DNA from: Gemmataceae bacterium
GTDB taxonomy: Bacteria > Planctomycetota > Planctomycetia > Gemmatales > Gemmataceae
Assembly (NCBI GenBank): GCA_019694755.1
Contig: JAIBBI010000001.1
Location: forward strand, 1 to 64,000
Direction of reading: 5' to 3'
Length of the DNA: 64,000 nucleotides
The notes under the pieces are model-generated. The model did no database searches and was not told the origin of the DNA. It saw nothing but the letters and a program-made list of their open reading frames with translations. This document shows positions 15,234 through 60,829 of this stretch, piece after piece. Numbering within the stretch: position 1 is the first letter of the stretch; every line of letters begins with the position of its first letter. The position numbers and the translations under genes are program-made.

Positions 15234-18200
15234 ATGTCACTCCGCACACGTCGTGGTTCGCTCGCCTCCCGGAATCTCCGCTCGAAACTGTTCGTCCGCG
15301 CGCTGGAAGACCGGTCGGTCCCGGCGGCATTCGTGGTCAATGCGAGTACCGACACCAACACCGCAGACCCGATGGACCCGCTCAAGGGCGACTTGCGCTA
15401 CTGCATCGACCAGGCCAACCTCAACCCCGGCCCGGACACGATTACGTTCGACGCGAGCGTGACCTCGATCGCGATGACCAACGGAACCGTTCTTACAATT
15501 ACCGATGACCTGAAGATCACGGGCAGCGGGTCGGGGATCCTTACGCTCGACGCTCTGAACGCAACTCGTCACTTCTTGATCGACAACGCGGCTGCCGGCC
15601 CCATTCATGTCGACATTTCCGGGATGAAGCTCATCAACGGCCGAAAGACCGGCACCCTGACCACCGACCGTGGTGGATCGATCTTCATCAACGACGAGTC
15701 GGTCACTCTGAATGACATGGTGCTCCAGAACAACACAGCCGACGGCCGAGGCGGCGCACTCAACATACAGGCCGCGCCTGGCACGCTCCTCGTGACAAAC
15801 TCCAAGTTTATCAACAATTCGGCGGCCTTGGCAGGCGGTGCGATTAACCTGCCGGCCGGTTCACTGACAGTTGAGAACTGCACGATCAGCGGCAATACGG
15901 CTCAGGGTCGAGCGGGCGGCATCTACAACACCGGCGGACTTCTCGTCGTCCGGTCGTCCAGTTTCGACGCCAGTGCGGGTTCCGGAAACCGCTCCAACAC
16001 GAGTTCCGGCGGAGCAATTAATGCGATCGGCGGATCGACCACAATCATCGACACCACGATCTCCGGCAGCACTGCCGCGACCCGTGGTGGCGGTCTCTAC
16101 ACCAGCAATACCAACCTGCTCGTTGACCGCTGCCTGTTCCAGAGCAACACGTCGCTCAGCGCATCTGGTGCGTCCGGCGGTGGCGCGTGTATTGCGCCAT
16201 TTCTCAATGTCGTCAACACGACCATTCGTAACAGCACATTTACCGGCAACACGGCATTGACCGGTGGAGGTCTCCAGTTCTATCTCGCTTATGGCATTCA
16301 GCGACTTTCCAATTGCACCATCGTCGGCAACACGGCGACAAGTACCGCTGCGGGAGCCGGCGGCGGCGGTCTCGCGCGGATAGCGTTCGGCACCGGCGCG
16401 CTGTTCATGGACAGCAACATCATCGCCAACAATACCAACACAGTCGCTCCGGATTTTCAGGGCGGCGGCGCAGTGGCCGGCTCCAATTTTGCCAACAACA
16501 ACTTCATCAAGGCTTCCACCGGGCAGGGCATTCTGACCGGCACAGGAAACGTCACCTCCACGGACCCGGACCTTGGGCCGCTCGCCAACAACGGCGGGGC
16601 GACCCTGTCCTTCAAGCCGAACCCGACCAGCCCCGTCATTAACGCGGGACTCAACCCGTTCGATGCTTCCGGGAAGGATCAGACGGGCAACACCCGGACG
16701 TTCGGTAATGCAGACGTCGGTGCCGTTGAGGTCATTACGGCAGGCACGCCGACAGCGTCGGCGACACTCGCCGGCATCTACTCCACCGGTGGCACGAACT
16801 ACTCCTTCTCTGTCCTGTACCAGGGGACGGCCAACATCGACGCTTCGACGCTCGGCAACACGGACATTCGCGTGACCGGGCCGAACGGCTTTAACCAGCT
16901 TGCCACTCTCCGGTCGGTTACTGGGTCGGGTGCAACGGTGACAGCTACCTATCAGGTAACGGCCCCTGGTGGCACGTGGGACGGAAGTGACGTTGGCCAG
17001 TACTCCGTCGCGGTCGAAGCGAGCCAGGTCGCCGACGTTGGTGCGGTCTTCGTCCCTGCGGGTTCGCTCGGTAATTTTGCGGTCGACGTCGGGCGGACCT
17101 TCGTCGTTACGAGTGGCGCGGATTCCGGTGCGGGCACACTTCGGCAAGCCGTACTGGACGCGGCCACGACGCTCGCACTCGACACGATCACTTTCGATCC
17201 CCTGCTGAACGGGACGACGATCACAGTCACCACGCCGATCGCTGTCAATAATCCGGTGTCCATCAACGGCCCGGGTGCCGACCTCCTGGCCATCAGCGGC
17301 GGGGGCACCAGCCGGATATTTACAGTCAACGGGCCGTTCAAAGTCGTTGCCAACTTCAACGATCTGAAACTGATGAATGGTCGATCGACCGGCGGCGCGG
17401 CGACGGACCGCGGTGCGGCGATTCAGATCGGCGAGGAAATCGTCAATGTGAATAACGTCATCTTCCAGGGCAATACCGTCTCGGGCACTCGCGGTGGTGC
17501 GATCGCGATTCAGGGGCAGAATACAAGCGTTGGCATCCTCAACGTGTCCAATTCGACTCTTACCGGCAACTCGGCGAATACGGCCGGAGGAGCGATGTTC
17601 ATCACCAATGGTCAGGTGACGATCACCGATTCGACTCTTTCCGGCAACACGAGCGCAGGCGCGGGCGGAGCGATTTCGTTCTACGCCCCTTCCAACACCG
17701 GAGCGTTTCTGACAATTGATCGATCGACGTTGAGCGCAAACACGGCCGGCACGGGCGGCGCGATTGCCGACCAGTCGGCTACATCCACGACGGTCACGAC
17801 CAACGTCTCGGCCGTTGCTCTCAACATCCGCAACAGCACGATCTCCGGAAACACGGCCACGGCCGTCAACGGCGGTGGCGGTGTCATTCTGACCGCATTC
17901 GGCCACACGATGCGAATTCAGAACAGCACTCTCGCCTTCAATACCGCTTCCAACGCGACAGGCTCCGGTGGCGGATTGCACTGGTTCAGTTCGAATTCCT
18001 CGACGACGCCGGGCACGGTAACGATCGACTCGTCCGTCATTTCCAAAAACGTCGCGACGAATGGCCCTGAAATTCGCACCACGGCCGGATCGCTCACGGC
18101 CAACAACTCAAACATCTTCGACACCACCGGCCAGACAATTACGGAAAACAGCCCGGTTGTCGGCGATCCGTTGCTGGCGCCGCTCGCCGACAATGGCGGC

Positions 18201-25053: not shown

Positions 25054-25104
25054 CGACGGCACCTTTACGAGTTATGATGATCGTCACTATTGCGGGGCGC
25101 ACCA

Positions 25105-28100
25105 ATGCGTTGGAAACGACTCGACCGTTTGGAAGATCGCATTGCCCCGGCCGCCATCGTCCGGCCATACCAGCCATTCACCGATTCGGAGGTTCTGGCC
25201 TACGTCACCGGGCGCGACCTCCTTGGCGGCAGCCCGCTCATCACGGAACCCGGTGGCGTGCTTGTGCGGATTCCACTCGGTCACGGCGCAGATCCCCAAG
25301 TCGTCGTCGACCAACTAGCCGCGAGGGCAGATGTCGCGTGGGCGTCCCCCAATTACGTCTATGCCGTCGGGCCGGGGGAGTTCATCCCCAACGATCCGCT
25401 GTTTTCCCAGCAGTATCATCTGAGCAAGATTCAGTCCCCGGCCGCCTGGGATGTGACCACCGGTTCTTCGAATGTTATCGTCGCTGTTGCCGACGACGGA
25501 TTGGCCATCTCACACCCCGATATCGCACCCAACGTCTGGTCCAACACCAAAGAAACGCCCGGCAACGGCATCGACGATGACGCCAACGGCTTCATCGATG
25601 ATGTCAACGGCTGGGACTTCGAGGGCGACGATAACAACGTCAATCCCGAGAACGGCGACACACACGGGACGCACGTCGCGGGCATCATCGGTGCCCGCAC
25701 CAACAATGCAGCCGGTGTGGCGGGCGTAGCCGGAGGTGGCGTCAGGATCATGCCTATCCGATGGGTCGGCAACGGCGTCGGCACCGGCACCTCGGCCGAC
25801 TGCGTTTCCGCCCTCACATATGCTGCCGACAACGGCGCCAAGATCGTCAACATGAGCCATACGTTTGATGGCTTCGTCGGCGATGCCGCAGTAACGACTG
25901 CCGTCAACTACGCTTACGGTAAGGGGTTACTGCTGATCAACTCCGCCGGGAACAATGACCAGGCCGATCCTTCCCGCGGTGCGTTCACTCAGATACTGTT
26001 CACGGCGGCCACGGACTCCAACGACCAACGCACGGCGTTCAGCAACTACGGAAAGTACATCGACGTATCCGCGCCCGGCATGAACGTGCTGTCCACCACG
26101 ATCGATAGCGGTGTGTTCAGCTATCGCATGATCAGCGGGACCAGCATGGCCTCCCCAAATGCGGCCGGCGTCGCCGCCTTGATCTGGTCCGCCCATCCTG
26201 CCTGGACTCGCGATCAGGTGGCCGCGCAACTCATCGGCTCGGCCGACCGAATCGATGAACTGAACCCGGGCTTCGAGGGCCAGTTGGGAAACGGCCGGGT
26301 GAATGCGGCCCGAGGTGTCTCGAGTACGATTCAGCCGCCACGGGTGATTCTTGAGGGAGGCCTCCCAGCTGAGGGGGGCTTTACAACTACCCGAAACTTC
26401 ACGATCGGCTTTGACACACCCCTCCGATTCGATCCGGCCACGGTCAGCGCGTCGAGCTTTGAACTGCGGGGTGACGGCGCTGACAACACGTTTGGGACGG
26501 CCGACGATACTCTGAAGACGCTCGTGATCAACGGTGGCGCGACCTACCGCATGGGAACGGACGGGTTCGCGATCACCTTTACCGGCAACCTCGCATACGA
26601 CCGTTACCGGTTCACTGCGAAGGCTGCGGTTTTGAAGGATCCTTTCGGACAGTCGCTCGATGGCGACTCCGATGGCGCGGCCGGAGGCGACTTCACCCGC
26701 ACGTTTCGCGTGTCCGTCAGCTCGATTCAGGGTCGGGTCTACGAGGACCTGGACAACAGCCTGCTCTTTGGCACGACATTCGACGCCCCGCTACCGGGCT
26801 GGACTGCTTTCATTGATTCCAACGGTAATGGCCAACTCGATAACGGCGAGCCGGTTGCCGTAACTGACGGAGTGGGAACGTACTCCTTCTTAGATCTGTC
26901 ACCGGGGACATACACTGTCCGACGCGTGACCTCGGCAGGGTGGACTGATAACCGCCCTTCCTCGGGTTTCTACTCAGTCACGCTCGCAAGCTCTACGTCG
27001 ACGAGTACCGCTAATCACTTCGGGCAGCAAAGGACCAACGCGGCTTACGGCAGGACGCACGAGGACCTCGATGGAAGCGGTGCCCGCGAATCGGCCGACC
27101 CCAATCTTGCGGGCGTCACTGTGTTTCTCGACTCCAACAACAACGGAGTCGCGGACACCACGCAGGCAATTCGAAGTTCGGTCGACGTGCCCAAGTCGCT
27201 GACGTTCGGAACGGTCACATCCGTGCTGACAGTCTCGGGCGTTTCCGGGCCGATCACCGATCTGGATGTGAACCTCTCCATTCAGCATACGTCAATTGTC
27301 GACCTGTCTCTCACGCTTATTGCTCCCGGCGGACGGCGCGTATTGCTTATGGCCGGGACGGGTGGCGAGACGGACAACCTCTCCGGGACAGTATTCGACG
27401 ACGAGGCGACCCTATCCGTCTCATCGGGCGTAGCCCCATTTTCGGGACGATTCCGCCCGGCTTCCCGGCTCGTCGATTTCGACGGGATGGATCCGAACGG
27501 CACCTGGGCTCTGGAGGTAGTCGACGATTCCGGGATCGGGCAGGCCGGAAGCCTGACCAGCTGGTCCCTCACGATTGGAGGCGGAGAGTCGATCACCAAC
27601 AGCGACTCGAACGGGCTGATACTGCTTACGGCCGTGCCAAATGGAACTGGTATCGTCCGGGCGCAGCCGCTGAGCGGCTGGCGACCGGCCAGCCCGGCAT
27701 CGGGTGCGGCGACCGTTTCTGTCGGGCCGGGGCCCGCGCTTGCCATTCATTTTGGGCAATGGCGTCAGAATGCGGCCTACGGGAGATTCTTCAACGATGC
27801 CAATGGAAACGCGGCGGCAGACTCCGGCGAGACGGCCTTGTCGAACTGGCGGGCATACGCCGACCGGAATGGTAACGGTGCTTTCGACGCCCCGGTCGTG
27901 AATAAGGCCTCGACCAACGTTCCCCGCACAATCGCCAACATGGCGACCACGACATCGTCCATGACTGTTGCCGGCATCCCCGACCCGATTACCGACATCG
28001 ATGTCAACCTCTCGATCAACCATGCTCACACTGTCGACATCATCGTTACGTTAATCGCGCCGGACGGTCGGCGAGTTCTACTCTGGGATCGCGTTGGTAC

Positions 28101-29013
28101 CGACTTCGACGACTTCACAGGTACGATTCTGGATGACGAGGCTTCCACCGCGATTGATGCCGGCACGGCGCCATATACCGGGAGATTCCGTCCTCAGGAA
28201 CCACTGAGCCTGTTGGATGGCAGCATCGCAAATGGGGTCTGGCGACTCGAAGTCATCGATACGTTTGCTTCCTACTCGGGGACAATCGACAGTTGGTCCC
28301 TGGATTTTGAGACAGCTGAGCCGTCGGCGATCTCGGCCTCTCACGGCGGCTACGCCATCGCCAATCTGACAGGTCCAACGACCATCCGCAGAGTCTTGCA
28401 GCCTGGCTGGGGCGGAACGCAACCGGCAGCCGACTCTTATCCGCTTTCCTTCACTGCCGGGGACACCGTGACGGGTCTTGCGTTCGGCCAACGGCAGGTC
28501 CCTCCGCGGGTCGCATCGATTATCATCAACGACGGCTCGGCCCAGCGGTCTCGGGTAACTTCCCTCACGATCGCATTCGATCGTGCGGTGACATTCTCAA
28601 ACGGCCTCACCCAGGCATTTCAGTTGACGCGGACCGGCCCCGGATCGCCGACGGGCGCGATCAGTTTTATCGCCGACTCGGCCGCCAGCACTTCGAGCCG
28701 AACTGTCGTTACCCTCAGCTTTCCGCCTCTGTCGGACGGGAACTATCAACTTTCAGTGATCGCGATCCAAGTCCTCGAGAATGGAATCGCCCTTGATGGT
28801 GACGGGAATGGCTCGGCCGGAGGGAACGCAAGCTTCACCTTCCACCGGCTATTCGGCGATAGTGACGGAGACCGGACGATCACCGCGGCGGACTTTCTCG
28901 CGTTTCGGCTCATGTTTCTGTCGAACAACCCCGTCTTCGACTTCGACGGCGACGGCCAGGTCGGGCCCGGAGACTTTCTCCAATTCCGGCTTCGTTTCCT
29001 CACGACCATTTGA
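25105..29013 (+). CDS. surface subtilisin-like (S8) protease with P-domains and dockerin-like end
   Basis: 1302 residues from ATG 25105 (an upstream TTG at 25090 is less likely). Opens RWKRLDRLEDRIAPA (LEDR at 9-12), then a propeptide (about 25-88). The S8 domain (about 100-410) has Asp130 in VAVADDG, His187 in THGTHVAG, Asn283 in NSAGNN and Ser347 in SGTSMASP. An Ig-like unit (about 412-535) and three SdrD/Cna-like units follow (from about 540, 645 and 890). The second and third are each interrupted by a proprotein-convertase P-domain (about 690-825, 932-1068). The end is an Ig-like domain (about 1132-1245) and a double EF-hand/dockerin-like unit (DSDGDRTITAADF, DFDGDGQVGPGDF). Probably a surface-anchored protease. 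Confidence 0.93.
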   Translation: MRWKRLDRLEDRIAPAAIVRPYQPFTDSEVLAYVTGRDLLGGSPLITEPGGVLVRIPLGHGADPQVVVDQLAARADVAWASPNYVYAVGPGEFIPNDPLFSQQYHLSKIQSPAAWDVTTGSSNVIVAVADDGLAISHPDIAPNVWSNTKETPGNGIDDDANGFIDDVNGWDFEGDDNNVNPENGDTHGTHVAGIIGARTNNAAGVAGVAGGGVRIMPIRWVGNGVGTGTSADCVSALTYAADNGAKIVNMSHTFDGFVGDAAVTTAVNYAYGKGLLLINSAGNNDQADPSRGAFTQILFTAATDSNDQRTAFSNYGKYIDVSAPGMNVLSTTIDSGVFSYRMISGTSMASPNAAGVAALIWSAHPAWTRDQVAAQLIGSADRIDELNPGFEGQLGNGRVNAARGVSSTIQPPRVILEGGLPAEGGFTTTRNFTIGFDTPLRFDPATVSASSFELRGDGADNTFGTADDTLKTLVINGGATYRMGTDGFAITFTGNLAYDRYRFTAKAAVLKDPFGQSLDGDSDGAAGGDFTRTFRVSVSSIQGRVYEDLDNSLLFGTTFDAPLPGWTAFIDSNGNGQLDNGEPVAVTDGVGTYSFLDLSPGTYTVRRVTSAGWTDNRPSSGFYSVTLASSTSTSTANHFGQQRTNAAYGRTHEDLDGSGARESADPNLAGVTVFLDSNNNGVADTTQAIRSSVDVPKSLTFGTVTSVLTVSGVSGPITDLDVNLSIQHTSIVDLSLTLIAPGGRRVLLMAGTGGETDNLSGTVFDDEATLSVSSGVAPFSGRFRPASRLVDFDGMDPNGTWALEVVDDSGIGQAGSLTSWSLTIGGGESITNSDSNGLILLTAVPNGTGIVRAQPLSGWRPASPASGAATVSVGPGPALAIHFGQWRQNAAYGRFFNDANGNAAADSGETALSNWRAYADRNGNGAFDAPVVNKASTNVPRTIANMATTTSSMTVAGIPDPITDIDVNLSINHAHTVDIIVTLIAPDGRRVLLWDRVGTDFDDFTGTILDDEASTAIDAGTAPYTGRFRPQEPLSLLDGSIANGVWRLEVIDTFASYSGTIDSWSLDFETAEPSAISASHGGYAIANLTGPTTIRRVLQPGWGGTQPAADSYPLSFTAGDTVTGLAFGQRQVPPRVASIIINDGSAQRSRVTSLTIAFDRAVTFSNGLTQAFQLTRTGPGSPTGAISFIADSAASTSSRTVVTLSFPPLSDGNYQLSVIAIQVLENGIALDGDGNGSAGGNASFTFHRLFGDSDGDRTITAADFLAFRLMFLSNNPVFDFDGDGQVGPGDFLQFRLRFLTTI

Positions 29014-48891: not shown

Positions 48892-49929
48892 TTGCGCCGT
48901 CTCGCTTTCTTCCTGGTTCTGGTCACCTTCACCGGGTGCGGCCGTCCTATCGACCGCATCAACGGTGGCGGGTCGTCGTTCGTGTATCCCGTCATGCTGA
49001 AGTGGTCGAGAGCCTATGCCGCCGACCGGACAGTTCAGGTGGATTATCAGTCGACGGGGTCAGGCAACGGCATTCAACAGGTGACCGTCGGTACCATCGA
49101 CTTCGGCTGCACCGACGCGCCCTTGAATGCGGAGCAGCGTGCGAAAGCGAAATCGATTCATGGCGATGTCATTCACATCCCTATGGTCATGGGCGGCGTT
49201 GTACCTGTCTACAACCTTCCCGGTCTCCCGGATGCCGCGGGGATCCGATTCGACAGCGAGACATTGGGCGGCATTTTTCTCGGCACAATTGAGCGTTGGA
49301 ACGACCCAGCATTGAAGGCGCTGAATCCAGGCGCGAACCTGCCGGACCAGCGGATTCTCGTCGTGACACGTTCGGACCCCAGCGGCACGACAGCCATTTT
49401 CGCTGATTATGTTTCGAAGGTCTGCCCCAAGCTGTGGACCGACAAGAGCATGGGCAAGCCAGGTACGGCTGTTCGCTGGCCGACCGGCGAGGCACAGAAA
49501 GGCAACGAGGGTGTTGCGGGCCTGATTGCACGAGTTCCCGGTTCCATCGGATATGTCGAGTTGAAGTATGCCGAAGATGTGGGGCTCGCGTTCGGCAGCG
49601 TCCGGAACAAATCAGGTGCGTTCGTCAAAGCTTCGCCCAAAAGCGTTCAGGCCGCGGCTGCCGCAGCATTAGTGAAGATCCCCGACGACATGTGTTTTTC
49701 TCTGACTAACCCGCCGGGTGCGGACTCCTACCCGATCAGCGGGACCGTTTGGGCTGTCTTCTACCGAGACTTACCCGATGACCGTCGGCGAATGCTGACG
49801 CCGTTCTTGCGCTGGGCAATCGGCCCCGGGCAGGAACACGCTTTGAAACTGGGTTACGCCCCCCTTCCCCAGGCGCTCGTTGCACGCGTGGCTGCCGAGC
49901 TCGACTCGCTCGAGGGGAAGCCAAGATGA
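48892..49929 (+). CDS. pstS: phosphate ABC transporter substrate-binding lipoprotein
   Basis: 345 residues from TTG 48892, which has GGAG 7 bases upstream; an alternative TTG at 48859 lacks a ribosome site. A lipoprotein signal (LAFFLVLVTFTGCG) places it on the outer face of the cytoplasmic membrane or in the periplasm. Phosphate-binding loops typical of PstS are present: GGGSSFVYPVMLKWS, STGSGNGIQQV, FGCTDAPLN, and TRSDPSGTTAIFADYV with the Ser-Gly-Thr that grips phosphate. It overlaps the fused permease by 4 bases (ATGA). Position next to PhoR suggests induction by phosphate limitation. Confidence 0.93.
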   Translation: MRRLAFFLVLVTFTGCGRPIDRINGGGSSFVYPVMLKWSRAYAADRTVQVDYQSTGSGNGIQQVTVGTIDFGCTDAPLNAEQRAKAKSIHGDVIHIPMVMGGVVPVYNLPGLPDAAGIRFDSETLGGIFLGTIERWNDPALKALNPGANLPDQRILVVTRSDPSGTTAIFADYVSKVCPKLWTDKSMGKPGTAVRWPTGEAQKGNEGVAGLIARVPGSIGYVELKYAEDVGLAFGSVRNKSGAFVKASPKSVQAAAAAALVKIPDDMCFSLTNPPGADSYPISGTVWAVFYRDLPDDRRRMLTPFLRWAIGPGQEHALKLGYAPLPQALVARVAAELDSLEGKPR

Positions 49930-51770
49930 CGACCGAACCAAAGCGCCCGGGGAACTGGATGTACGCCCGCGGCGACAAGGTCTTTCGCGCAATCTGTCTG
50001 ACCGCAGCGGCGGCAGTACTGGCCGTTGTGGTCGGGCTGGTCGCGGTGTTAGTCGTCGAATCGTGGCCTTTCTGGCGACAGTTCGGATCGGCCGCGATTC
50101 GGGGGACGGAGTGGAACGCCGGCCGCGGACAGTTTGGGGTGTGGGCTCTGGTGTACGGAACGCTGATCACTTCAGCGATTGCGATGGTTCTGGCCGTCCC
50201 ACTTGGTGTGGGTACAGCCGCTTACCTTTCAGAAATTGCGAGCGGTTCAGTCCGGCGGGCCGGGTCGTTTCTGGTCGAACTACTGGCGGCCATCCCCAGC
50301 GTCGTTTACGGATTCTGGGGCCTGCTCTTTCTGACTCCCCTGGTCCGGCAGTTGTTTTCGCTGACAGGCCGGCCGTACTCGTCCGGGTCGGGACTCCTGG
50401 CGGCCGGCTTGATCCTCGCCATCATGATCCTGCCATATGTGACTGCAATCTCTTTCGATGTCTGTCGGGCCGTACCGCGGTCGCAGCGCGAGGGTGCGTT
50501 GGCTCTGGGAGCGACCCGTTGGCAGATCATCCGCGGCATAGTTTTGCCCTACGCCCGTCCGGGGATCTTCGCCGCATGCTTTCTCGCGCTGGGGCGGGCC
50601 TTGGGCGAGACTATGGCCGTCACCATGCTCATCGGGAATGTCGCCCGAATCGACCTCTCCGTGTACGGTCTTGGCGATTCCATCGCGAGTAAGATCGCCA
50701 ACGAATTAAATGAGGCGTCCGGCGATTTGCATCGCAGCGCCCTTGTCGGACTCGGGCTTCTTCTCTTCATTGTTACGGCGGCGGTCAACGTGGCGGCCCG
50801 ATGGCTCATTGCTCGAGCGAGTTCAGCCAAACGCCGTCGCGGGCTCTTCGAACGGCTTTTTCACTCTCGAGGCCACCTCACGCACATCGAAGGAGTTGCC
50901 CGGCATCCCAGCCTTCCGCCGCCGTCCATCTGGAATCAGCGGATCAACTCGATCATGACGTGGGTCCTGGCAAGTTGTCTATTCGTCACAATCTTGCCTC
51001 TGTTTCTGATCCTGGGTTACATCGCCGTTCGCGGGACGATGGCGCTCAATTGGGACTTCTTTACAAAGCTGCCCGCGCCGCCCGGCGAATCGGGAGGCGG
51101 CCTGGCACACGCACTGGGCGGGAGTGCGCTGCTGGTCTCGCTCGCGACTGTAGCGGCCGTGCCCGTGGGCATCCTGGCGGCAGTTTTCCTTTCGGAGTAT
51201 CGAACAAGCCGACTTGCCCCCGCGGTGCGATTTCTCGGCGAGTTGCTCGGTGGGGTACCGTCGATCATCCTCGGGATTTTCGCTTACACCCTGCTCGTCG
51301 GCCCGACGCGCAGTTTCTCGGCCTGGGCCGGCGCTTTTGCTTTGGCTGTCATGATGATCCCAATCGTTCTGAGGGCAACCGAGGAGTCGCTGCGACTCGT
51401 ACCGCAGGCACTTCGGAATGCCAGCTTTGCGCTAGGGGCTACCCAATGGCAGACGGCCGTAAAAGTGACCATTCCGGCCGCCATGCCGGCAATCATCACC
51501 GGCGTCTTCCTCGCAATCGCACGCATTGCGGGAGAAACAGCTCCACTGCTCCTGACGGCGTACGGCTCCAACTTTTGGCCCCGCAGCCCCAACGACCGCA
51601 CGCCATTCCTGGCCAAATACATCTTTGATTACTCGCGAAGCGGCTACCCTGACTGGGAACGTCAGGCATGGGCTGGCGCGCTGGTGTTGCTCGCTGTCGT
51701 CATGTTCCTGAATGTCGGTATCCGCCTTGCGACGGGCAAACGGGTGATTTCGGCGACCCGGGCGGATTAA
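49926..51770 (+). CDS. fused phosphate ABC permease PstC-PstA
   Basis: 614 residues, two complete permease units in one chain with no frameshift between. The PstC half (about 1-300) has SIPSVVYGFWGL-like AIPSVVYGFWGL and the ATPase-docking EAA loop REGALALGATRWQIIRGI. A linker of ~40 polar residues (about 301-335) leads to the PstA half (about 340-614) with GGVPSIILGIFAYTLL and a second EAA loop NASFALGATQWQTAVKV. In most bacteria these are two genes. The ATPase PstB and regulator PhoU are not adjacent; the kinase phoR follows after 8 bases. Confidence 0.92.
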   Translation: MTTEPKRPGNWMYARGDKVFRAICLTAAAAVLAVVVGLVAVLVVESWPFWRQFGSAAIRGTEWNAGRGQFGVWALVYGTLITSAIAMVLAVPLGVGTAAYLSEIASGSVRRAGSFLVELLAAIPSVVYGFWGLLFLTPLVRQLFSLTGRPYSSGSGLLAAGLILAIMILPYVTAISFDVCRAVPRSQREGALALGATRWQIIRGIVLPYARPGIFAACFLALGRALGETMAVTMLIGNVARIDLSVYGLGDSIASKIANELNEASGDLHRSALVGLGLLLFIVTAAVNVAARWLIARASSAKRRRGLFERLFHSRGHLTHIEGVARHPSLPPPSIWNQRINSIMTWVLASCLFVTILPLFLILGYIAVRGTMALNWDFFTKLPAPPGESGGGLAHALGGSALLVSLATVAAVPVGILAAVFLSEYRTSRLAPAVRFLGELLGGVPSIILGIFAYTLLVGPTRSFSAWAGAFALAVMMIPIVLRATEESLRLVPQALRNASFALGATQWQTAVKVTIPAAMPAIITGVFLAIARIAGETAPLLLTAYGSNFWPRSPNDRTPFLAKYIFDYSRSGYPDWERQAWAGALVLLAVVMFLNVGIRLATGKRVISATRAD

Positions 51771-51778
51771 AAGCGGTC

Positions 51779-53131
51779 ATGCCTCGGCGAATTCTCCTTG
51801 GCCAATCCCTGATTGCAGCAACGTGCGTCGCAGGTGTGTCCCTCTTCGCGACTCCGGGTGCGTATCTCACGGCCGGGTTGCTGGGTCTGTCGGCCGCCGT
51901 CGCGGTCGCTGTCCCGACAATTCTGGCAGTCCGGGCCTCGTCGGATGCGATTCGCCGGCTCACGTTTCGCGTCGATCAATTGGCCGCGGGCGAGTTCAGC
52001 GGAAAGGTGTATGTCGGAGTCGGCGGTGAACTACGGGCACTGGCGCAATCAGTAAACGCGTTGAGCGAAGCCACGGCCGGAAGACTCGATCAACTCGAGC
52101 GGGATCGCCGGCGGTTGGCCGGGATTCTGAGTGGGCTAGTCGAGGGCGTGGTCGCGCTCGATGCCGAGGATCGAATCGTCTTCGCCAACGCAAGGGCCGG
52201 ATCGCTCCTGGAATTCCCGCCAGACAGGGCCGTGGGAAGAAAGTTCTGGGAAGTAGTACGTCAGCGGACAGTTGACGAATTGGTCCGCGATGCGTCGATG
52301 GCCCAGGAACCCCGGCGTGCCGACATCGATTGGCAAAGCGCCTCACCCCGGAGCCTAGCTGTCTATGCCGCTCCGCTGGCTGGCGACGCAACGGGAATGA
52401 TCGTCGTGATTCACGACATGACGGACTTGCGTCGCCTAGAGAAACTTCGCCAGGAATTCGTTGCCAACGTTTCGCACGAGTTGAAGACGCCCCTTGCGGT
52501 GATCAAGGCGAGCGCCGAGACTCTGATCGACGGAGCGGTGGAGGATGTAGCGTACCGGCGGAAATTCCTGGACCAGATTGCCGAGCAGTCGGACAGGCTT
52601 CACGCACTGATACTCGACCTGCTCGCATTGGCCCGGATCGAGGGCAATGCCGTCCCGGCCGAGCCGGCCGCGGTGTCTGTGGATGAGCACGTCGGAGCCG
52701 CTGTCGAAAGACATCGAATTCGGGCGGAAGCGAAGCAAATCGAGCTTTACCAAATCGCAGGGCCGGCCGTGACGGCATGGGCAGAGGAGGAGGCCGTCGA
52801 AGTCATGCTCGACAATCTCATCGACAATGCCATCAAGTACACGCCGGAGAAAGGCAGGATCACCGTGAAATGGGGCGATCAGGCCGGCTGCACGTGGTTG
52901 GAAGTCAGCGACTCGGGAGTCGGAATACCGGAAGCGGACCTACCGCGGATCTTCGAGAGATTCTACCGCGTCGACAAAGCGCGATCACGCGAATTGGGCG
53001 GGACGGGCCTCGGTCTGGCCATTGTGAAGCACCTCGCTCAGACAAACGGCGGATCGGTGTCTGCCCGTAGCGCAGTCGGGAAGGGAAGTACGTTTACGAT
53101 CAAGCTTCCGGCCATGCCGCCCGGGCGATAG
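51779..53131 (+). CDS. phoR: PhoR-like sensor histidine kinase
   Basis: 450 residues from ATG 51779, 8 bases after the permease. Two N-terminal membrane helices (about 6-22 and 29-51) almost without a periplasmic loop, as in PhoR, then a HAMP-like region, a PAS domain (about 108-215; ILSGLVEGVVALDAEDRIVF), the HisKA helix with His233 in FVANVSHELKTPLAVIKAS, and a HATPase domain with DNLIDNAIKYTP (N-box), DSGVGIPEADLPRIFERFYR and GGTGLGLAIVKHL. With no large sensor loop, it probably reads phosphate through contact with the transporter. The cognate regulator phoB is not in the window. Confidence 0.9.
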   Translation: MPRRILLGQSLIAATCVAGVSLFATPGAYLTAGLLGLSAAVAVAVPTILAVRASSDAIRRLTFRVDQLAAGEFSGKVYVGVGGELRALAQSVNALSEATAGRLDQLERDRRRLAGILSGLVEGVVALDAEDRIVFANARAGSLLEFPPDRAVGRKFWEVVRQRTVDELVRDASMAQEPRRADIDWQSASPRSLAVYAAPLAGDATGMIVVIHDMTDLRRLEKLRQEFVANVSHELKTPLAVIKASAETLIDGAVEDVAYRRKFLDQIAEQSDRLHALILDLLALARIEGNAVPAEPAAVSVDEHVGAAVERHRIRAEAKQIELYQIAGPAVTAWAEEEAVEVMLDNLIDNAIKYTPEKGRITVKWGDQAGCTWLEVSDSGVGIPEADLPRIFERFYRVDKARSRELGGTGLGLAIVKHLAQTNGGSVSARSAVGKGSTFTIKLPAMPPGR

Positions 53132-53133
53132 TT

Positions 53134-54342
53134 TCAGCGGCCTAGGCGTGGCTCGAAAAGAAATCCGTTCTGGTCGGCCCGGAAGCGGAGCCCGTAGTTC
53201 GGGAATGGAATCGGGCCAATCATCGCATCATCAACTCGGCCATCGCCCGAACCTGTCAGGATCGGGATGCGATCGATGATCCGGACGTTGAGGGTCATTG
53301 TGCCGCTCAGTTTGCCACCAAGGCGAGGCGGCAACTTCCATTTCGCGGGCAGCGATTGCAGTATCAACCGGGTCGCGTCAAATTCGAACTTCATGTTGCT
53401 GCCGTTGGACGGGCGGAAGTCCAGAACCGCGCCGGAAACGTGCAACTCTCCCTCGGCCACTTTGCCACGCACGTCGCGAAGCAGCACGACGCCGTCCTCG
53501 ACCAGCACCTGCCCCGCGGCCGTCGCGGCCCGCAGATCAATCGAAGGGACGTACACTGAAGTATTTGCCGGGGTCAGCGCGACGCGATATCGCGTCTTGG
53601 CCGGGGCCGGCGGGATCTGAAGTTGCAGGTCCACCGGGGTCTGGCCTGCCAACTCGACGTGAGACCAGACAGACACCGGGACGTACGGCACGCGCCGGAG
53701 CATTTCCTGCGTTACGCTAACACCTGGCGACTTAAGATGGAGTGCAACCACGCCGCCCGCCTTGGGTGCCGCCCCTGCCACGGCCCATTTCCCGCCCCAG
53801 GCAGGATCGACAATGGTGCCCTGCATCGCGACCTGGCCCGACGCTTCGTTGACTTCACCATCCAGCCCGCGGAAGGACACATCGGGTTCGCCGTCCTTCT
53901 TGATCGTCACGCCGGCCCGGGTGAGCCGGATCGTGGGCAGTGGGCGGTCCGCGCCGGCCGGCTGCGGCGTCTTCGTGAGAAGATGCCCTTCGCGGTCGTG
54001 TCGGACGACGACGTGCAAATCGATTAGTGAAACCCGGGACGGATCATTGGACCCGGAAACGAGGTCTGTCAGCCCGACATCAGTCTCAACCCTGCCAATG
54101 GTAACGAACGGTTGCTGGCCCGTCGTCGCGTCCAACTCGTAGACCGCGACATCGGTGAGGATGGACCCGTCAAGGCCGACCTGCAGACCGCCCACGGTCA
54201 CCTTTGTCCCGAGAGCGGCAGAGATGCGTGAGGCGACACGGTTGGCCGCCATGTCCGACTGCATGACCGCGCGGGCGGCGAACCAGCCGCAGGTCAGGAG
54301 GCCCGACAAAACGAGTACCGATTTGATGAGGAATCGCATCAT
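53134..54342 (-). CDS. AsmA-like membrane-anchored protein
   Basis: 402 residues. One N-terminal membrane helix (FLIKSVLVLSGLLTCGWFAA), then a long beta-rich periplasmic part. The layout resembles AsmA/TamB/YhdP-type proteins: an early KVTVGGLQVGLDGSILTDVAV strip and late RLGGKLSGTMTLNVRIID and GSGDGRVDDAMIG blocks. Such proteins are thought to bridge inner and outer membranes and move lipids. Its ATG overlaps the stop of the M14-S9 gene by 4 bases, so the two are coupled, but a link in function is not obvious. It converges on phoR with 2 bases between stops. Confidence 0.7.
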   Translation of the reverse strand: MMRFLIKSVLVLSGLLTCGWFAARAVMQSDMAANRVASRISAALGTKVTVGGLQVGLDGSILTDVAVYELDATTGQQPFVTIGRVETDVGLTDLVSGSNDPSRVSLIDLHVVVRHDREGHLLTKTPQPAGADRPLPTIRLTRAGVTIKKDGEPDVSFRGLDGEVNEASGQVAMQGTIVDPAWGGKWAVAGAAPKAGGVVALHLKSPGVSVTQEMLRRVPYVPVSVWSHVELAGQTPVDLQLQIPPAPAKTRYRVALTPANTSVYVPSIDLRAATAAGQVLVEDGVVLLRDVRGKVAEGELHVSGAVLDFRPSNGSNMKFEFDATRLILQSLPAKWKLPPRLGGKLSGTMTLNVRIIDRIPILTGSGDGRVDDAMIGPIPFPNYGLRFRADQNGFLFEPRLGR

Positions 54343-57300
54343 GAACCGTCCGTGGAACCGCGTTCGGGAGCGCGGGCATCGACTCCGAGGCTCCGGCAGA
54401 TGAAATTAAACACCTGCCGCTGATAGTGCCGGCCGAAGATCCCGTGCCGGGAGGTCGGATAGACCATGACCTCGAAATCCTTGTCCGCCCGCTGAAGCGC
54501 CTGGATCAATTGCGCGGAATTCTGCACGTGAACGTTGTCATCCATCATACCGTGAATGAGCAGCAGTTTGCCGTGCAGTTGCCCGGCCGCCTTAACAACC
54601 GATGAGACATCGTACCCCTTCGCGTTGTCAGCGGGCAACCCCATGTAGCGTTCCGTGTAGATGGAGTCGTACAACCGCCAGTCGGTGACCGGAGCGCCCG
54701 AGACGCCGGCACAAAAAACCTTGGAGTGGGTCAGGGCGTAGGCCGTGATGTACCCGCCGAAACTGTGGCCCGACAAACCGATGCGTTTGCTGTCGACCCA
54801 AGGGTTCTTACCCAGCCATGCCACCGCGGTTTCAAGATCTCTCAATTCCTGGACTCCCAGTTGACGGTAGGATGTCCAGGACGACTGAGCTCCCCGGCCG
54901 CTGGCGCCCCGCGGATCGACCTTGAACACGATGATGCCGAGAGCTGCCAGCAAATGGTCGTCGAGTCGGACCGCGCCGACACTATCCGAAACCGTAGGCA
55001 TGTGCGGACCGGCATACGTTTTGACCCAGACGGGGTACTTTCGAGTCGGGTCGAAGTCCGGCGGATAGACAACGATTCCCTGCGTGGTGAAGTCATCAAG
55101 CGGCACCTCAACGGCCTCGACCTTGCCGAGCCTGTACTCCTCGCGCACGTAAGTCGGGTTGGAATCGAGCACGCGTACGAGTGTGCCGTCGGCCGCCCGA
55201 AGTCGGACCTGCCCCGCCGACTCTAATGCACTGACCGTGTCGATGAACATCGTTCCCGTGGCATTGAAACTCGCGGAGTGCGAGCCGGTTTCGGGCGTCA
55301 GCCGCTCGATGGCGGAGCCGTCGAGTTTGGCGCGATAAACGTTGGTGCCGATCGGCGAGTCTTTCGTTGCCAGAAGATAGACCCATCCGCCGGCAGCATC
55401 CACCTGAAGAATCTTGCGGGCCTCCCAGTCACCCGCCGTGACCGCGTTTCGCAGGAGGCCGTCTTTTCCGTAGCGGTAGGCATGCCGCCAGCCGGTGCGG
55501 TCGGAGAGAAACAAGAAGTCGCCGCCGGGAAGCGTGTGGAGCGGCCCGGTGTTGTCGACCCAGGCTTTTGTCGTTTCCCGGAAAAGTACCCGGGGCGACT
55601 CGCCGGTCTGCGGAATCGCAACGATGTCGTACCAGGTCTGGATTCGATTGCTGATATAGGCGTAGGCCATTTCGGCATCGAGCCAGCCGACCCGCTGGAT
55701 GATCATGTCGCCCGGGTCGTACCCGGGGAGCGACACCCAGCGAACTGTCGGCTCGACCGTGTCGGGGCGAGCCAGCGATTTGTCCGAGACATCGGGAATT
55801 TGCGCAATCCCGAGGCGGACGGTCGGGTTGGGATCGCCGGCCTTGGGATAAGGGTACTTCTCGACATCGAGCCGGGTCGGAATGTGATTGACCACGGAAT
55901 AGGTGTGAACCGGCGAGTCATCAAAGCGAATGAACGCCAGCCGGCGCGCGTCCGGAGACCACCAGAAGGCCGGCCCGGCCCGGTCGAAGACTTCTTCTTC
56001 GTAAACCCAGTCGGCCCGGCCATTGAGAACTGCCAGGCCGCCGTCGTTTGTCAGTCGACGGTCCTCCAATGCCGGCGACGAGACGAAAAGGTTACCGTTC
56101 AGCGTCCGCGCCACCGACCGCGAGCGCGGGCCGAGCGTCGCAAACTCACCAGCCGTCTGATCGCGAGTCAGTCGAACTGCGGGCGAACCATCGAAGAAGC
56201 CCAGATACAGATCCTTCTTGTGATTAAACAGGGCGGCCGATCGGGCCGAGTCCATTTGCAGCGACGGTCGACGGCTTAGTTCGTCGGCCGACTCAGCAAT
56301 GTCCGCATTGGCCCGCAGAGACTTCGAAAGGAGTTTGCGGTCAATGAACGGGCTCGATTTTCCGGTGCGGGCATGGACCTTGAGAAGTTGGGCGTCCTTG
56401 GTCTGGAGGAAATGCTCGCCGTCTTCCAGCCAGTCGAAATCGCGGGCGGGATTGCCCCCAAAGCTCACCGGCCGATTGCCGAACACGAGTGGAATATCCA
56501 CGGGCCGGTTCATCACCCGGTCTTCGGGCAAAGGCCTGACTCCGCCAGTGAGCGCTGGCGGCATCGCAGCCAAGCGTATCACGGGGTAATCCGAGCCGTC
56601 CTTCAGGCCGGCATCGAAGAAGTTCCAGGCGGCGAGACCGTCTTCGCTTTGAGGCTCGAGCAGCAGACCCGCAAGCATGCCGAGCGGTTGCCTGGTTTTC
56701 ACAACAACGGAGCCGGCGGGAACCTTCGTCGACTCTGTGCGAGGCGCGACTTCGAGACGGCGAAGCGTGTGCCCCTGAAAGGCCCGTGGGGCCGACTCGA
56801 TCCGGTTGACACGATACAACTCGGCATCGAGAACAAGATCCTCGCGGAGTTGGGTGAGTTCGATTCCGTGCCGTTGAAGACACTCGATGGCTTTGTCGAA
56901 TCCTGGTTGGATGACGTAGATGGGTGCAAGTGGGACTTCGAGCGTCGGCTCGACGCGTGAGACAACCGTGACCGGGTATTCTTTGGTCTGTGCCGTCGGT
57001 TTGCCATTCACCTCGACGAAGCCCAGCACCGATGCCTTTTCGCCAGTAGGCGTCGCCCGAGTGCGAAGTGCGAGGCGTTCATCGCCGGTGCGGGCGGGGA
57101 GTTTCTTTAACTCTTCCACATGCGCGGCGGCCTCCTGGCAGATGCCGCGCGAAAACTCGAGGCTGGCTTTCACCCGATCCGCGAACGGGGCATATGAATA
57201 CGATTCGCTGAGGACGCCGACCTTGCCGCGGATTCCGACATATTGAACACCGTAGCGCGGAGTAGCGGGATAAGTTTCCCAGCGAGTCCGGTCGGCCGAA

Positions 57301-58064
57301 AAATTGCCGTAGCGGAACGGCACGAAGCCCGTCGCCGCCTTCATCCGCTCGGCTGCGGCCGGGACCAGTATTGCCGCGATCTCCCCGGCCTTGCCCGCGT
57401 TCGGATGCCTCGAGGCGTCGTAGGTCATCGTGTGCCGGTGATAAGAACCGTTGGTAGTGTGCAGGTCGGCTACGACGGCCGGGTCCCATTCACGGAGACA
57501 CTTGACGAGGGCGCGGACTTCCGGCGTTTCCAGTTTCACGAAGTCGCGATTGAGGTCGAAACCGCCGGAGTTTTCGCGGTCGCCGACAGCGTCGGGTCCG
57601 CCCTGCTCCGCTCGTTTTCCTTGAGCGACCTTCTCATTGCCATCGGCATTGAAATTGGGCACCATCAGCACGACGATCTGCTTCAGCAAATCCCTGTCGC
57701 CACCAGTTGCCAGGTCCCGGCTCAGGGCGAGTAAAGCCTCCTTGCCGTCAACTTCTCCGGCATGGATGTTGCCGATCATCAGAACGACCGGTTTGCCCGA
57801 CTTGCGGGCCGCGACGGCATTGGTCACCGGCGGTTCGGCAATTACCCAGAGGGGAATTTCCCGCCCCTCTCCGCTTTTTCCGAGAGACAGGGGCACAAAC
57901 GATGGTGCCTGAGCAGCCATCGCCTTGCCGAACGCAAGTACTTCGGCATGGCGAGTCGTCGCCTTGTAGCCTGAGGATTCGGCCGTGGAGCGGGGCAGGT
58001 CGGCCGGGGCCGAAGTCGCGCAAGCGAGAAGCACGACTGCTGCGGGAATCCATCGCGCGAACAT
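54339..58064 (-). CDS. secreted fusion of M14 carboxypeptidase and S9 prolyl oligopeptidase
   Basis: 1241 residues with a signal peptide (MFARWIPAAVVLLACATSAP). The N-terminal third is an M14 zinc carboxypeptidase: His101 and Glu104 in GNIHAGEVDG, Asn172-Arg173 in DLNRDF, His202 in DLHTTNG and catalytic Glu287 in VLSESYSYAPF. The C-terminal ~700 residues are an S9 peptidase of the dipeptidyl-peptidase IV type: a beta-propeller (about 530-960; FWWSPDARRLAFIRFDDS) and a hydrolase domain with Ser1101 in SGHSFGGY, Asp1175/1176 in HGMMDDN and His1207 in SRHGIF. All key residues of both enzymes are kept and the frame is unbroken. One half trims from the C-terminus, the other removes N-terminal dipeptides. 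It overlaps the AsmA-like gene by 4 bases. Confidence 0.93.
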   Translation of the reverse strand: MFARWIPAAVVLLACATSAPADLPRSTAESSGYKATTRHAEVLAFGKAMAAQAPSFVPLSLGKSGEGREIPLWVIAEPPVTNAVAARKSGKPVVLMIGNIHAGEVDGKEALLALSRDLATGGDRDLLKQIVVLMVPNFNADGNEKVAQGKRAEQGGPDAVGDRENSGGFDLNRDFVKLETPEVRALVKCLREWDPAVVADLHTTNGSYHRHTMTYDASRHPNAGKAGEIAAILVPAAAERMKAATGFVPFRYGNFSADRTRWETYPATPRYGVQYVGIRGKVGVLSESYSYAPFADRVKASLEFSRGICQEAAAHVEELKKLPARTGDERLALRTRATPTGEKASVLGFVEVNGKPTAQTKEYPVTVVSRVEPTLEVPLAPIYVIQPGFDKAIECLQRHGIELTQLREDLVLDAELYRVNRIESAPRAFQGHTLRRLEVAPRTESTKVPAGSVVVKTRQPLGMLAGLLLEPQSEDGLAAWNFFDAGLKDGSDYPVIRLAAMPPALTGGVRPLPEDRVMNRPVDIPLVFGNRPVSFGGNPARDFDWLEDGEHFLQTKDAQLLKVHARTGKSSPFIDRKLLSKSLRANADIAESADELSRRPSLQMDSARSAALFNHKKDLYLGFFDGSPAVRLTRDQTAGEFATLGPRSRSVARTLNGNLFVSSPALEDRRLTNDGGLAVLNGRADWVYEEEVFDRAGPAFWWSPDARRLAFIRFDDSPVHTYSVVNHIPTRLDVEKYPYPKAGDPNPTVRLGIAQIPDVSDKSLARPDTVEPTVRWVSLPGYDPGDMIIQRVGWLDAEMAYAYISNRIQTWYDIVAIPQTGESPRVLFRETTKAWVDNTGPLHTLPGGDFLFLSDRTGWRHAYRYGKDGLLRNAVTAGDWEARKILQVDAAGGWVYLLATKDSPIGTNVYRAKLDGSAIERLTPETGSHSASFNATGTMFIDTVSALESAGQVRLRAADGTLVRVLDSNPTYVREEYRLGKVEAVEVPLDDFTTQGIVVYPPDFDPTRKYPVWVKTYAGPHMPTVSDSVGAVRLDDHLLAALGIIVFKVDPRGASGRGAQSSWTSYRQLGVQELRDLETAVAWLGKNPWVDSKRIGLSGHSFGGYITAYALTHSKVFCAGVSGAPVTDWRLYDSIYTERYMGLPADNAKGYDVSSVVKAAGQLHGKLLLIHGMMDDNVHVQNSAQLIQALQRADKDFEVMVYPTSRHGIFGRHYQRQVFNFICRSLGVDARAPERGSTDGS

Positions 58065-58128: not shown

Positions 58129-58929
58129 TCAACTGCTCGCGCTGCGGTAACTCTGCATCGCCCGGCGGAATACTCGCCGGCTGACAAACAACAGTATGAC
58201 GGCCGACGCCACTAGATACGCGATCATTTGCGAATCGAGCAACTTGACGACCGAAGCGGCCGGCACGTTGACAGCCAGAAGTACGGGAATGATGAAGGTA
58301 AAAAACCACCCGATGGCATTTGTGTAGGGAGCGTTGAATATCTCTTTGGGGTATCGCATGAGACTCATGAACAGCCACCAGAGTTCGTAAAGGCTCTGAT
58401 TCCGAACGAGCCAAACGGCAGTGGCAGAAAGCATGAGCAGAAAGCTATATGCCATTGCGACGGCACACGTGAGGCCGACAGCGAAGGCGACATACGCCAT
58501 TGCAGGCGGAGGGACATCGAGTTGCAGTATTGACCGGGTCATCAGGATGAGGCCGAATACCGCGCTGGGCAGCGTCGACCACTCCACATGGCGGAATGAG
58601 ATCAGGAACTGCTCATCCACAGGTTTGAGCAGTACCAGATCGAGGTTTCCCGTACGCACCAGTTCGGAGAATTCACCGAAATTGGACAGAAAGAACGTCT
58701 CGATCAGGCTTTCCATCAGGTAGTAGGTACCGAGGAAGAAAAAGTACTGCGGCCGGCTCCAGCCTGCGACGGCAGCAGTGAAGTCGAACAGCCGATCGTA
58801 GAAGAACACCATCAGCCCGAGCCAGAGCAATTCAACGACCACCTTGATCAGGAAATTGCCGCGGAAAGCCATGTCTCCGAGAAGGCTGACGCGAGCGAAA
58901 GCGCGAAACAGTCGCACGTACCTCATCAT
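58129..58929 (-). CDS. ABC-2 type transporter permease
   Basis: 266 residues from ATG 58929 (or the adjacent ATG 58926), a few bases after the stop of the upstream permease gene. Six hydrophobic segments, cytoplasmic N-terminus (MMRYVRLFRAFARVSLLGDM). The loop with ELVRTGNLDLVLLKPVDEQF is typical of the ABC-2 permease group once called DUF990 (ABC2_membrane_6). It is the third gene of an ATPase-permease-permease operon, probably an exporter with one ATPase dimer and a permease heterodimer. Substrate not evident. Confidence 0.87.
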   Translation of the reverse strand: MMRYVRLFRAFARVSLLGDMAFRGNFLIKVVVELLWLGLMVFFYDRLFDFTAAVAGWSRPQYFFFLGTYYLMESLIETFFLSNFGEFSELVRTGNLDLVLLKPVDEQFLISFRHVEWSTLPSAVFGLILMTRSILQLDVPPPAMAYVAFAVGLTCAVAMAYSFLLMLSATAVWLVRNQSLYELWWLFMSLMRYPKEIFNAPYTNAIGWFFTFIIPVLLAVNVPAASVVKLLDSQMIAYLVASAVILLFVSRRVFRRAMQSYRSASS

Positions 58930-58933
58930 CGGT

Positions 58934-59785
58934 TCAGCCCCCGTACGCACTGTAACGCCGGAGGCCCGTGCGGTAAAGCACCCGGGCCAACAAGAGCAGG
59001 ACGACGGCCCAGATCGCTTCGATGATCAGCCCGTGGGTGAGATCCAAACCGGTTGTCTTGCCAAGAAAGACAGTCGCAGGGAAGTACGCGAGATATTGGG
59101 TGGGCAGCAGTTTCAGAAACGTGGCCCACGGCTCGCCCAGGACGTCGATGGGGAACATGTGCCCTGAGACGAAGTAATTAAGCGTCATGATGATGTAAAG
59201 CACGGAGCTGACTTCCAGTAGCCAGAAGCCGATCATGCCGACGCAAGCCTCGAATGCGAATCCGACGACGAACGCCAGAAGCAGCGATATGAGGTAAGCG
59301 ACCAGTGTGATAGCGTCGGGCCAGTGGTCGAAGAACCTGTAGCAGATTCCGAAGATCACGGCATAAGGCAGGGCCGAAGTCACGATGTAAGCGGCCTTAT
59401 GGGCCGCCCGATACGAGATGAGATATCCGATCAGGTCGAGCGGCTGAACGAGGTACTTCTTCAAGCTGCCGTCCCGGATATCGCGGGCGATGCCCGAGGC
59501 AAGCCCGGGCATCGACGAGAACATCCGGCTGATGTGGACGAGCAGCAGATACGCGATCATCTCGCGATACCGGTAGCCGCCCAGTTCCTCCCGGCCGGAC
59601 TCTTTCGCCCCGTCGAATACAGCGGTCCAGAGTAGGATCGTGGTCAACATCGGCAGGAAGCGCAGGAACGTGCCGAGAAAAAAATCGCCGCGGTATGCGA
59701 ACCGTTCCGTGAGCGAAACGCGAAAGATTCGGAGGTATTTCCGGAAGGCCGCGAGGATGCCGGGGGTTGCGGATAGGGTGTTCAC
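58934..59785 (-). CDS. ABC-2 type transporter permease
   Basis: 283 residues, six hydrophobic segments. The N-terminus RKYLRIFRVSLTERFAYRGD and the loop DIRDGSLKKYLVQPLDLIGY mirror the neighbouring permease, so the two are paralogous halves of one channel. Its start overlaps the ATPase stop by 4 bases (ATGA) and its stop lies 4 bases before the next permease. The arrangement fits the daunorubicin-resistance-like or DUF990-type exporters. Substrate unknown. Confidence 0.87.
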   Translation of the reverse strand: MNTLSATPGILAAFRKYLRIFRVSLTERFAYRGDFFLGTFLRFLPMLTTILLWTAVFDGAKESGREELGGYRYREMIAYLLLVHISRMFSSMPGLASGIARDIRDGSLKKYLVQPLDLIGYLISYRAAHKAAYIVTSALPYAVIFGICYRFFDHWPDAITLVAYLISLLLAFVVGFAFEACVGMIGFWLLEVSSVLYIIMTLNYFVSGHMFPIDVLGEPWATFLKLLPTQYLAYFPATVFLGKTTGLDLTHGLIIEAIWAVVLLLLARVLYRTGLRRYSAYGG

Positions 59786-60780
59786 GAGGCGATTGCCGCC
59801 TCCACCGGTGTCGCGGATTGTTCGAAGATTCGAGCGATCGCGTCTTCAAGTGGCGGATCTTCTACGCTCAGATCTGTCACCGTGTGTTGTGAGAGAAGGT
59901 CTGACAGGATGCTGCTGGCTTTGGAGCGATCGATCTGTAGCGTCGCGGCCCGGTCGACCGCCTGCGTAACTGTGCCATACCGGGAAAGATCGGGGGCCGG
60001 CCCGGCGAACTGCAGCCGCAGGAGTTTGACCCGGCCAAACTGGTCGGTGATTCCCTCGAGCGCTCCGTCATAGACCAGTCGCCCGTGATTGATCACGAGG
60101 ACCCGCCGGCAGAGCGCCTCGACGTCTCGCATGTAGTGACTGGTCAGCAGCATCGTGATGCCGCGAGTGGCGTTGTACTCGCGCAGACAGTTCTGGATGA
60201 TGCCCTGACCCACCACATCGAGACCGATCGTCGGTTCGTCGAGCAGGAGCAGTTCGGGTCGATGAAGCAGCGCTGCGATGAGTTCCATCCGCATCCGCTC
60301 GCCAAGAGAGAGTTCGCGGACCGGTTGCTTCGCCAACTTTTCAACCCGGAACAGCTCGGTAAGTTCTCCCAGAGTCCGGTCGAATTGGTCCTGCGGCAGG
60401 TTGTAGATTTCTCGGTGGAGGCGGAAACTGTCGGCAGCCGGGAGATCCCACCAGAGTTGGTTCTTCTGCCCCATGATGAGGCTGAAACGCCGGCGGAAGG
60501 CGTCGGCCCGGTCCGACGGCGTAAACCCGAGTACCTCGCAGGATCCGTTCGAAGGATAGATCAGGCCGGCGAGCATTTTCAGCGTCGTGGTCTTGCCCGC
60601 GCCGTTGGGGCCCAGAAAGGCCACCATCTCTCCCGGCTCGATCTCGAAGCTGACGCCGTCGACCGCACGTACGATCTTGTACTTGCGTGCGAACAGGTGC
60701 CGCATGGCTCCCCGGAGCCCCGGCTGTTTTTCGGCGACGCGGTAGTTCTTGCCCAAATCACGGGCGATTACGATCGGCAT
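59782..60780 (-). CDS. ABC-2 type transporter ATP-binding protein
   Basis: 332 residues from ATG 60780, with GAGG 6 bases upstream; the frame continues to 60804 without a ribosome site. ATPase motifs: Walker A FLGPNGAGKTTTLKML, Q-loop IMGQKNQLWWDLP, signature ELSLGERMRME (LSLGE instead of LSGGQ, usual in this branch), Walker B LLLLDEPTIGLD and switch His in TSHYMRD. An N-terminal extension with RGAMRHLFARKYKIVRAVDG and a ~90-residue C-terminal domain flank it. It heads the operon of two ABC-2 permeases. Divergent from argG with ~120 bp between. Confidence 0.91.
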   Translation of the reverse strand: MPIVIARDLGKNYRVAEKQPGLRGAMRHLFARKYKIVRAVDGVSFEIEPGEMVAFLGPNGAGKTTTLKMLAGLIYPSNGSCEVLGFTPSDRADAFRRRFSLIMGQKNQLWWDLPAADSFRLHREIYNLPQDQFDRTLGELTELFRVEKLAKQPVRELSLGERMRMELIAALLHRPELLLLDEPTIGLDVVGQGIIQNCLREYNATRGITMLLTSHYMRDVEALCRRVLVINHGRLVYDGALEGITDQFGRVKLLRLQFAGPAPDLSRYGTVTQAVDRAATLQIDRSKASSILSDLLSQHTVTDLSVEDPPLEDAIARIFEQSATPVEAAIAS

Positions 60781-60829
60781 TCCGGACCTCGAATTCACTC
60801 CCACATTGTAGCTACGAAATCGTGATGCG

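Follow-up and report, generated by a model that had tools for sequence, protein, structure and literature searches.

A conserved fusion of an M14 carboxypeptidase with a DPP4-type S9B peptidase in Planctomycetota

The fusion gene and its surroundings

The window, by which we mean the whole stretch of DNA that was analysed, comprises 64,000 nucleotides from a Gemmataceae bacterium. Its minus strand carries a gene that joins an M14 and an S9B peptidase, located between an AsmA-like gene and an exporter. The following features were assigned.

53134..54342, minus strand: 402-aa neighbour with a weak AsmA/YhdP-like match; 4-bp overlap (ATGA) with the fusion gene
54339..58064, minus strand: M14-S9B fusion gene, 1241 aa; ATG at 58064, stop at 54339, from ORF reading
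57999..58064, minus strand: putative signal peptide, residues 1 to ~22 MFARWIPAAVVLLACATSAPAD, Sec/SPase I type as judged from the sequence and the homologue leaders
57105..57992, minus strand: M14 zinc carboxypeptidase catalytic domain, residues ~25-320; zinc ligands H101/E104/H202, general base E287, carboxylate anchors R163/N172/R173
56535..57104, minus strand: beta-rich C-terminal domain of the M14 unit, residues ~321-510; present in stand-alone M14 relatives too
56430..56585, minus strand: junction, residues 494-545; 46-59 aa in 46 fusions, modelled as folded
54957..56432, minus strand: DPP4-type beta-propeller region, residues ~545-1036; contains E690/E691
54387..54956, minus strand: S9 alpha/beta-hydrolase domain, residues ~1037-1226; S1101, D1175, H1207
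58129..60804, minus strand: ABC-2 type exporter upstream of the fusion gene; ATPase 59782-60804, permeases 58934-59785 and 58129-58950

An earlier note on this DNA had described a single uninterrupted chain of 1241 residues. This was borne out by a minus-strand ORF without stop or frameshift. If 54339-58064 is read in the frame set by these positions, the plus strand is broken by stops; the minus strand is open throughout, and the SD-like ggaaggga lies just 5' of the ATG at 58064. Three Pfam families were matched, all of them far over the cut-off: Peptidase_M14 (PF00246) at residues 44-205 (1.2e-19), DPPIV_N (PF00930) at 630-946 (2.4e-70) and Peptidase_S9 (PF00326) at 1037-1226 (1.4e-47). A complete DPP4-type S9B peptidase spans residues ~520-1230. 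Within the source genome the fusion protein is the sole match to PF00246 and, by a wide margin, the top match to DPPIV_N.

The protein begins with a hydrophobic leader whose final residues are APA. Homologue leaders are likewise hydrophobic, many with AxA at the end, and share no lipobox Cys. Because of these leaders, export via Sec is likely, and the secretion claimed earlier is kept as a probable export. A lipoprotein was rejected: C15 makes a poor lipobox, and the homologues have no conserved Cys.

Conservation of the two active sites

To assess residue conservation, 46 fused proteins from Planctomycetota were aligned. In the M14 half, H101, E104, H202 and E287 are invariant (46/46), so that the intact M14 peptidase of the earlier note was confirmed. 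The same holds for R151, R163, N172 and R173. R163, N172 and R173 occupy what we take to be the positions that grip the free C-terminal carboxylate of the substrate in metallocarboxypeptidases. R163 sits nine residues before the Asn and aligns with the Arg of 1h8l/1qmu (duck CPD domain II).

The S9 half has retained the triad S1101, D1175 and H1207 in all 46 fusions. The intact S9 peptidase with its propeller had been proposed with the Asp given as 1175/1176; the Ser and His stood, and the triad Asp is D1175 and not D1176, since D1175 is invariant (46/46) and one relative has DFN there. Equally invariant are the Glu-Glu motif of the propeller (DW.YEEE; E690/E691), the pair that binds the free N-terminus in DPP4, and residues Y1017, Y1132, Y1136, R1139 and N1177. 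Among the latter, Y1017, Y1132, Y1136 and N1177 presumably correspond, by motif, to human DPP4 Y547, Y662, Y666 and N710 (S1/oxyanion).

All these residues are retained even in divergent members with 35-52% identity to the window protein. Selection for catalysis appears to act on both units, as indicated by the invariance of active-site and anchor residues in the 46 fusions. Conserved anchors for free C- and N-termini are the traits that separate exopeptidases of opposite polarity from endopeptidases. The previous suggestion that the halves act on opposite peptide ends by different chemistry agrees with this pattern, R163/N172/R173 and E690/E691 being the putative anchors for the two ends.

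Predicted structure and the junction

An AlphaFold2 model was obtained for residues 25-1224 with 48 sequences. The model is compact, with a pLDDT of 92.9 and a pTM of 0.88. In structure comparison, the S9 half aligned with P. gingivalis DPP4 (5olj) over 671 residues (Z 43.7, 2.2 A) and with S. maltophilia DPP4 (2ecf) with Z 41.8 and 33% identity. The M14 unit was also modelled separately (pLDDT 88.8). Here, a structure search returned carboxypeptidases A, B, D and M (Z 25-28, ~250 residues). Nearly all of these matches are limited to residues ~25-320 and leave 321-510 uncovered. The latter region is beta-rich in the model, with two very long strands at residues ~330-378, and the search with the M14-unit model gave no identification of its fold. 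Residues 321-510 belong to the M14 unit, because stand-alone M14 relatives finish at the end of this domain.

By sequence, the nearest solved M14 enzymes are CPD, CPN and CPM, and also CPB. This bears on the substrate. Instead of ordinary peptides, the M14 unit might have peptidoglycan or some other non-protein peptide as its substrate, and some bacterial M14 enzymes do cleave cell-wall peptides. Proximity to the CPD/CPN/CPM type, the conserved C-terminal-carboxylate anchors and the DPP4 partner, for which we know of no role in peptidoglycan, make such an activity very unlikely. None of the present tests points to the peptidoglycan- or collagen-like substrate that had been suggested before.

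The junction between the units has a near-constant length of 46-59 aa in the 46 fusions and lacks low-complexity sequence, and its pLDDT blocks lie at 82-95. Its residues are among the less conserved of the protein (mean column identity 0.40-0.51), as might be expected if the chain were cut here after export. Two ordinary free enzymes would result, and the fusion would be a co-export device only. We think this improbable in view of the confident modelling, the conserved length and the missing low-complexity linker. The near-constant, folded junction, together with a pTM that suggests a fixed arrangement, would also suit a coupled machine, in which the two sites share a chamber or path and a trimmed peptide is handed to the other head. 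Such channelling is doubtful, however, given the history of the gene described below.

Distribution of the fusion in Planctomycetota

The source genome (5.6 Mb) is in 335 contigs, and the agreement of relatives was therefore checked. The M14-S9 fusion recurs in no fewer than 46 proteins of Planctomycetota (Gemmatales, Isosphaerales, Pirellulales and Phycisphaerae). A search of 59 relatives gave matches that span the full length in a single frame, both within the family and in further families of the class, and ORF reading in relatives confirmed the fusions as single ORFs. In a scan of named genomes, the matches listed included ones from Gemmata, an Isosphaeraceae bacterium, Pirellula, Mariniblastus and Phycisphaerales, among others. 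When 393 genomes of the phylum were surveyed, 113 had an M14 match, and for some 30 of these it falls in an open frame of more than 1100 aa. About 25 of the long frames were read, and the S9 half was present in those. The fusion is also found on large single contigs (G031:C1, G314:C1, G369:C1, G412:C1 and G057:C1), and several of the fusions lie on single-contig chromosomes.

An assembly or annotation artefact has next to no probability, as the fusion recurs in 46 proteins of independent genomes, these large contigs included. The fear of a lone assembly fault is thus dispelled, and a frameshift artefact was rejected on the same ground. In one genome (G035, locus L034:5319-9037) the fusion is split around residue 1028-1050 by what looks like a frameshift, either an error or decay.

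Viral contigs yielded no relatives of the fusion. No plasmid record covered 80% of the query, and among the plasmid matches listed only the S9 half was found. Outside Planctomycetota, the fusion occurred among the matches listed in one MAG labelled Verrucomicrobia (L052). As this sequence falls inside a planctomycete clade in the trees, mis-binning or mislabelling is likely.

Lone halves and the history of the fusion

Trees of the M14 and S9 halves agree in two fusion groups, one of Gemmatales, Isosphaerales and Phycisphaerae and one of Pirellulales. As to one or two origins of the fusion, a single clade of fused S9 halves was neither rejected (p-AU 0.448) nor shown. Outside the fusion groups are S9B proteins that stand alone, from Acidobacteriota and Planctomycetota. 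Lone M14 genes are nested among the Gemmatales fusions in the M14 tree; the S9 genes of G032, G007 and L056 are nested among fused ones and retain no more of the M14 unit than its tail. Based on this nesting, the fusion is old, yet seems to have been repeatedly split or truncated.

Three S9 proteins nested among the fusions have lost the M14 catalytic domain (L035:6546-9176, L039:6265-9309 and L056:6978-9542). A new leader precedes what is left of the M14 unit, the tail of the C-terminal domain. These proteins seem to be natural truncations of the fusion.

In two MAGs, one labelled Kuenenia and one of Acidobacteria, both halves are present as unlinked genes. Separate neighbouring genes had been named as a finding that would speak against a true fusion. 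Lone halves do exist, and none of the lone M14 or S9 copies were neighbours in flanks of up to 6 kb or in the two genomes covered whole. Physical linkage of the halves is not obligatory, since relatives have either half alone and some have an S9 protein without the M14 catalytic domain.

These observations weigh against the coupled machine. In several lineages the fusion has apparently been split or truncated, and lone copies without linkage are frequent, which speaks against handing over between the heads. An essential channel is disfavoured because the fusion seems to have been split repeatedly. Strict processivity is in any case not expected of two exopeptidases with opposite polarity. The processive breakdown proposed earlier was accordingly not upheld, there being no sign of channelling, often separate halves, and some S9-only relatives without an M14 catalytic domain.

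Comparison with known peptidases

With DPP4 (S9B; P. gingivalis 5olj, S. maltophilia 2ecf, P. mexicana WO24 5yp1) the fusion protein shares the full-length propeller and hydrolase fold, the S-D-H triad, the Glu-Glu motif and the S1/S2 residues, with up to 33% identity over ~670 residues. It differs by the complete M14 carboxypeptidase in front. In addition, the nucleophile motif is GHSFGG or GHSYGG in most fusions, in contrast to the usual GWSYGG of DPP4. The M14B enzymes (CPD/CPN/CPM) have the same zinc ligands, Glu base and Asn-Arg motif, and duck CPD domain II also has the Arg nine residues before the Asn. Unlike in these, a DPP4 is attached. The beta-rich domain 321-510 was not matched here to the M14B transthyretin-like domain. 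Closest to the M14 half are stand-alone planctomycete M14 proteins of 525-640 aa (~44-50%), and closest to the S9 half stand-alone S9B proteins of Acidobacteriota and Planctomycetota (up to 46%), in each case encoded by a separate gene. Carboxypeptidase D and other multi-peptidase chains also contain more than one peptidase unit. To our knowledge, however, the known compound peptidases repeat one family, whereas here two unrelated families and catalytic types are combined.

NCBIfam has no equivalog for the whole fusion chain, and its matches were far under the cut-off. In a full-text search of open-licence papers, no work came up that describes a fusion of M14 with S9 or of a carboxypeptidase with DPP4. 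A 2014 survey of prolyl oligopeptidase architectures counted 105 bacterial ones and mentions S41-PDZ-DPP combinations (PMC4522959); its main text is without the terms M14, carboxypeptidase and zinc. Both enzyme types are known singly, and the conserved combination appears to be undescribed. The literature searched agrees with the earlier note, whose author knew of no described enzyme of this kind, though the fusion itself is widespread in genomes of the phylum.

A further cross-family peptidase fusion is a 1872-aa ORF of an Acidobacteriota MAG (L103:2194-7809, plus strand), with an M16-type peptidase region (PF05193) and a DPP4-type S9 peptidase.

Proposed function of the fusion protein

The product is probably a two-headed exopeptidase that is exported and breaks peptides down from either end. 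Underlying this are the single ORF, the conservation of the fusion, the invariant active sites and anchors, and the predicted folds. The protein would be exported to the periplasm or outside the cell. There, the N-terminal M14 unit would act as a zinc carboxypeptidase and take residues off the C-terminus. Its partner in the C-terminal half, a DPP4-type (S9B) serine dipeptidyl aminopeptidase, would remove N-terminal dipeptides of the X-Pro/X-Ala type. Both heads probably work on opposite ends of a common pool of short peptides, and the products would be dipeptides and amino acids for uptake. The benefit of the fusion may lie in co-export and 1:1 co-localisation and not in channelled processive digestion.

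A true bidirectional machine would go beyond this two-headed exopeptidase. It would hold a metallo-carboxypeptidase and a serine dipeptidyl aminopeptidase, of unrelated families, in a fixed arrangement for coordinated digestion from two ends, and would be an undescribed type of compound exopeptidase that is conserved in one phylum. We judge this unlikely.

The fusion unites two unrelated families that are opposite in polarity and differ in their catalytic chemistry, and it is conserved in one phylum. Planctomycetota are debated for unusual uptake of macromolecules. With the split and truncated versions as natural controls, the effect of fusing exopeptidases on peptide turnover is directly testable.

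Gene neighbourhood

In relatives, no synteny at the fusion was conserved, and neither the AsmA-like gene nor the ABC-2 exporter is kept. No conserved neighbourhood that would hint at a peptide-uptake pathway was found beside the fusion in relatives either. Both genes were left out of the mechanism because they are not conserved near the fusion; they are probably not part of its system.

Other reading frames of the window were recorded. Two long ORFs, of 1700 aa (15234-20336, plus strand) and 977 aa (20409-23342, minus strand), had no Pfam match at 1e-5. A 614-aa ORF at 49926-51770 (plus strand) is above the cut-off for both PstC (TIGR02138) and PstA (TIGR00974), i.e. both phosphate permease subunits in one chain, and is followed by a PhoR/PnpS-like kinase at 51668-53131. 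Finally, a 1307-aa ORF at 25090-29013 (plus strand) combines a subtilase (S8) with a proprotein-convertase P-domain.
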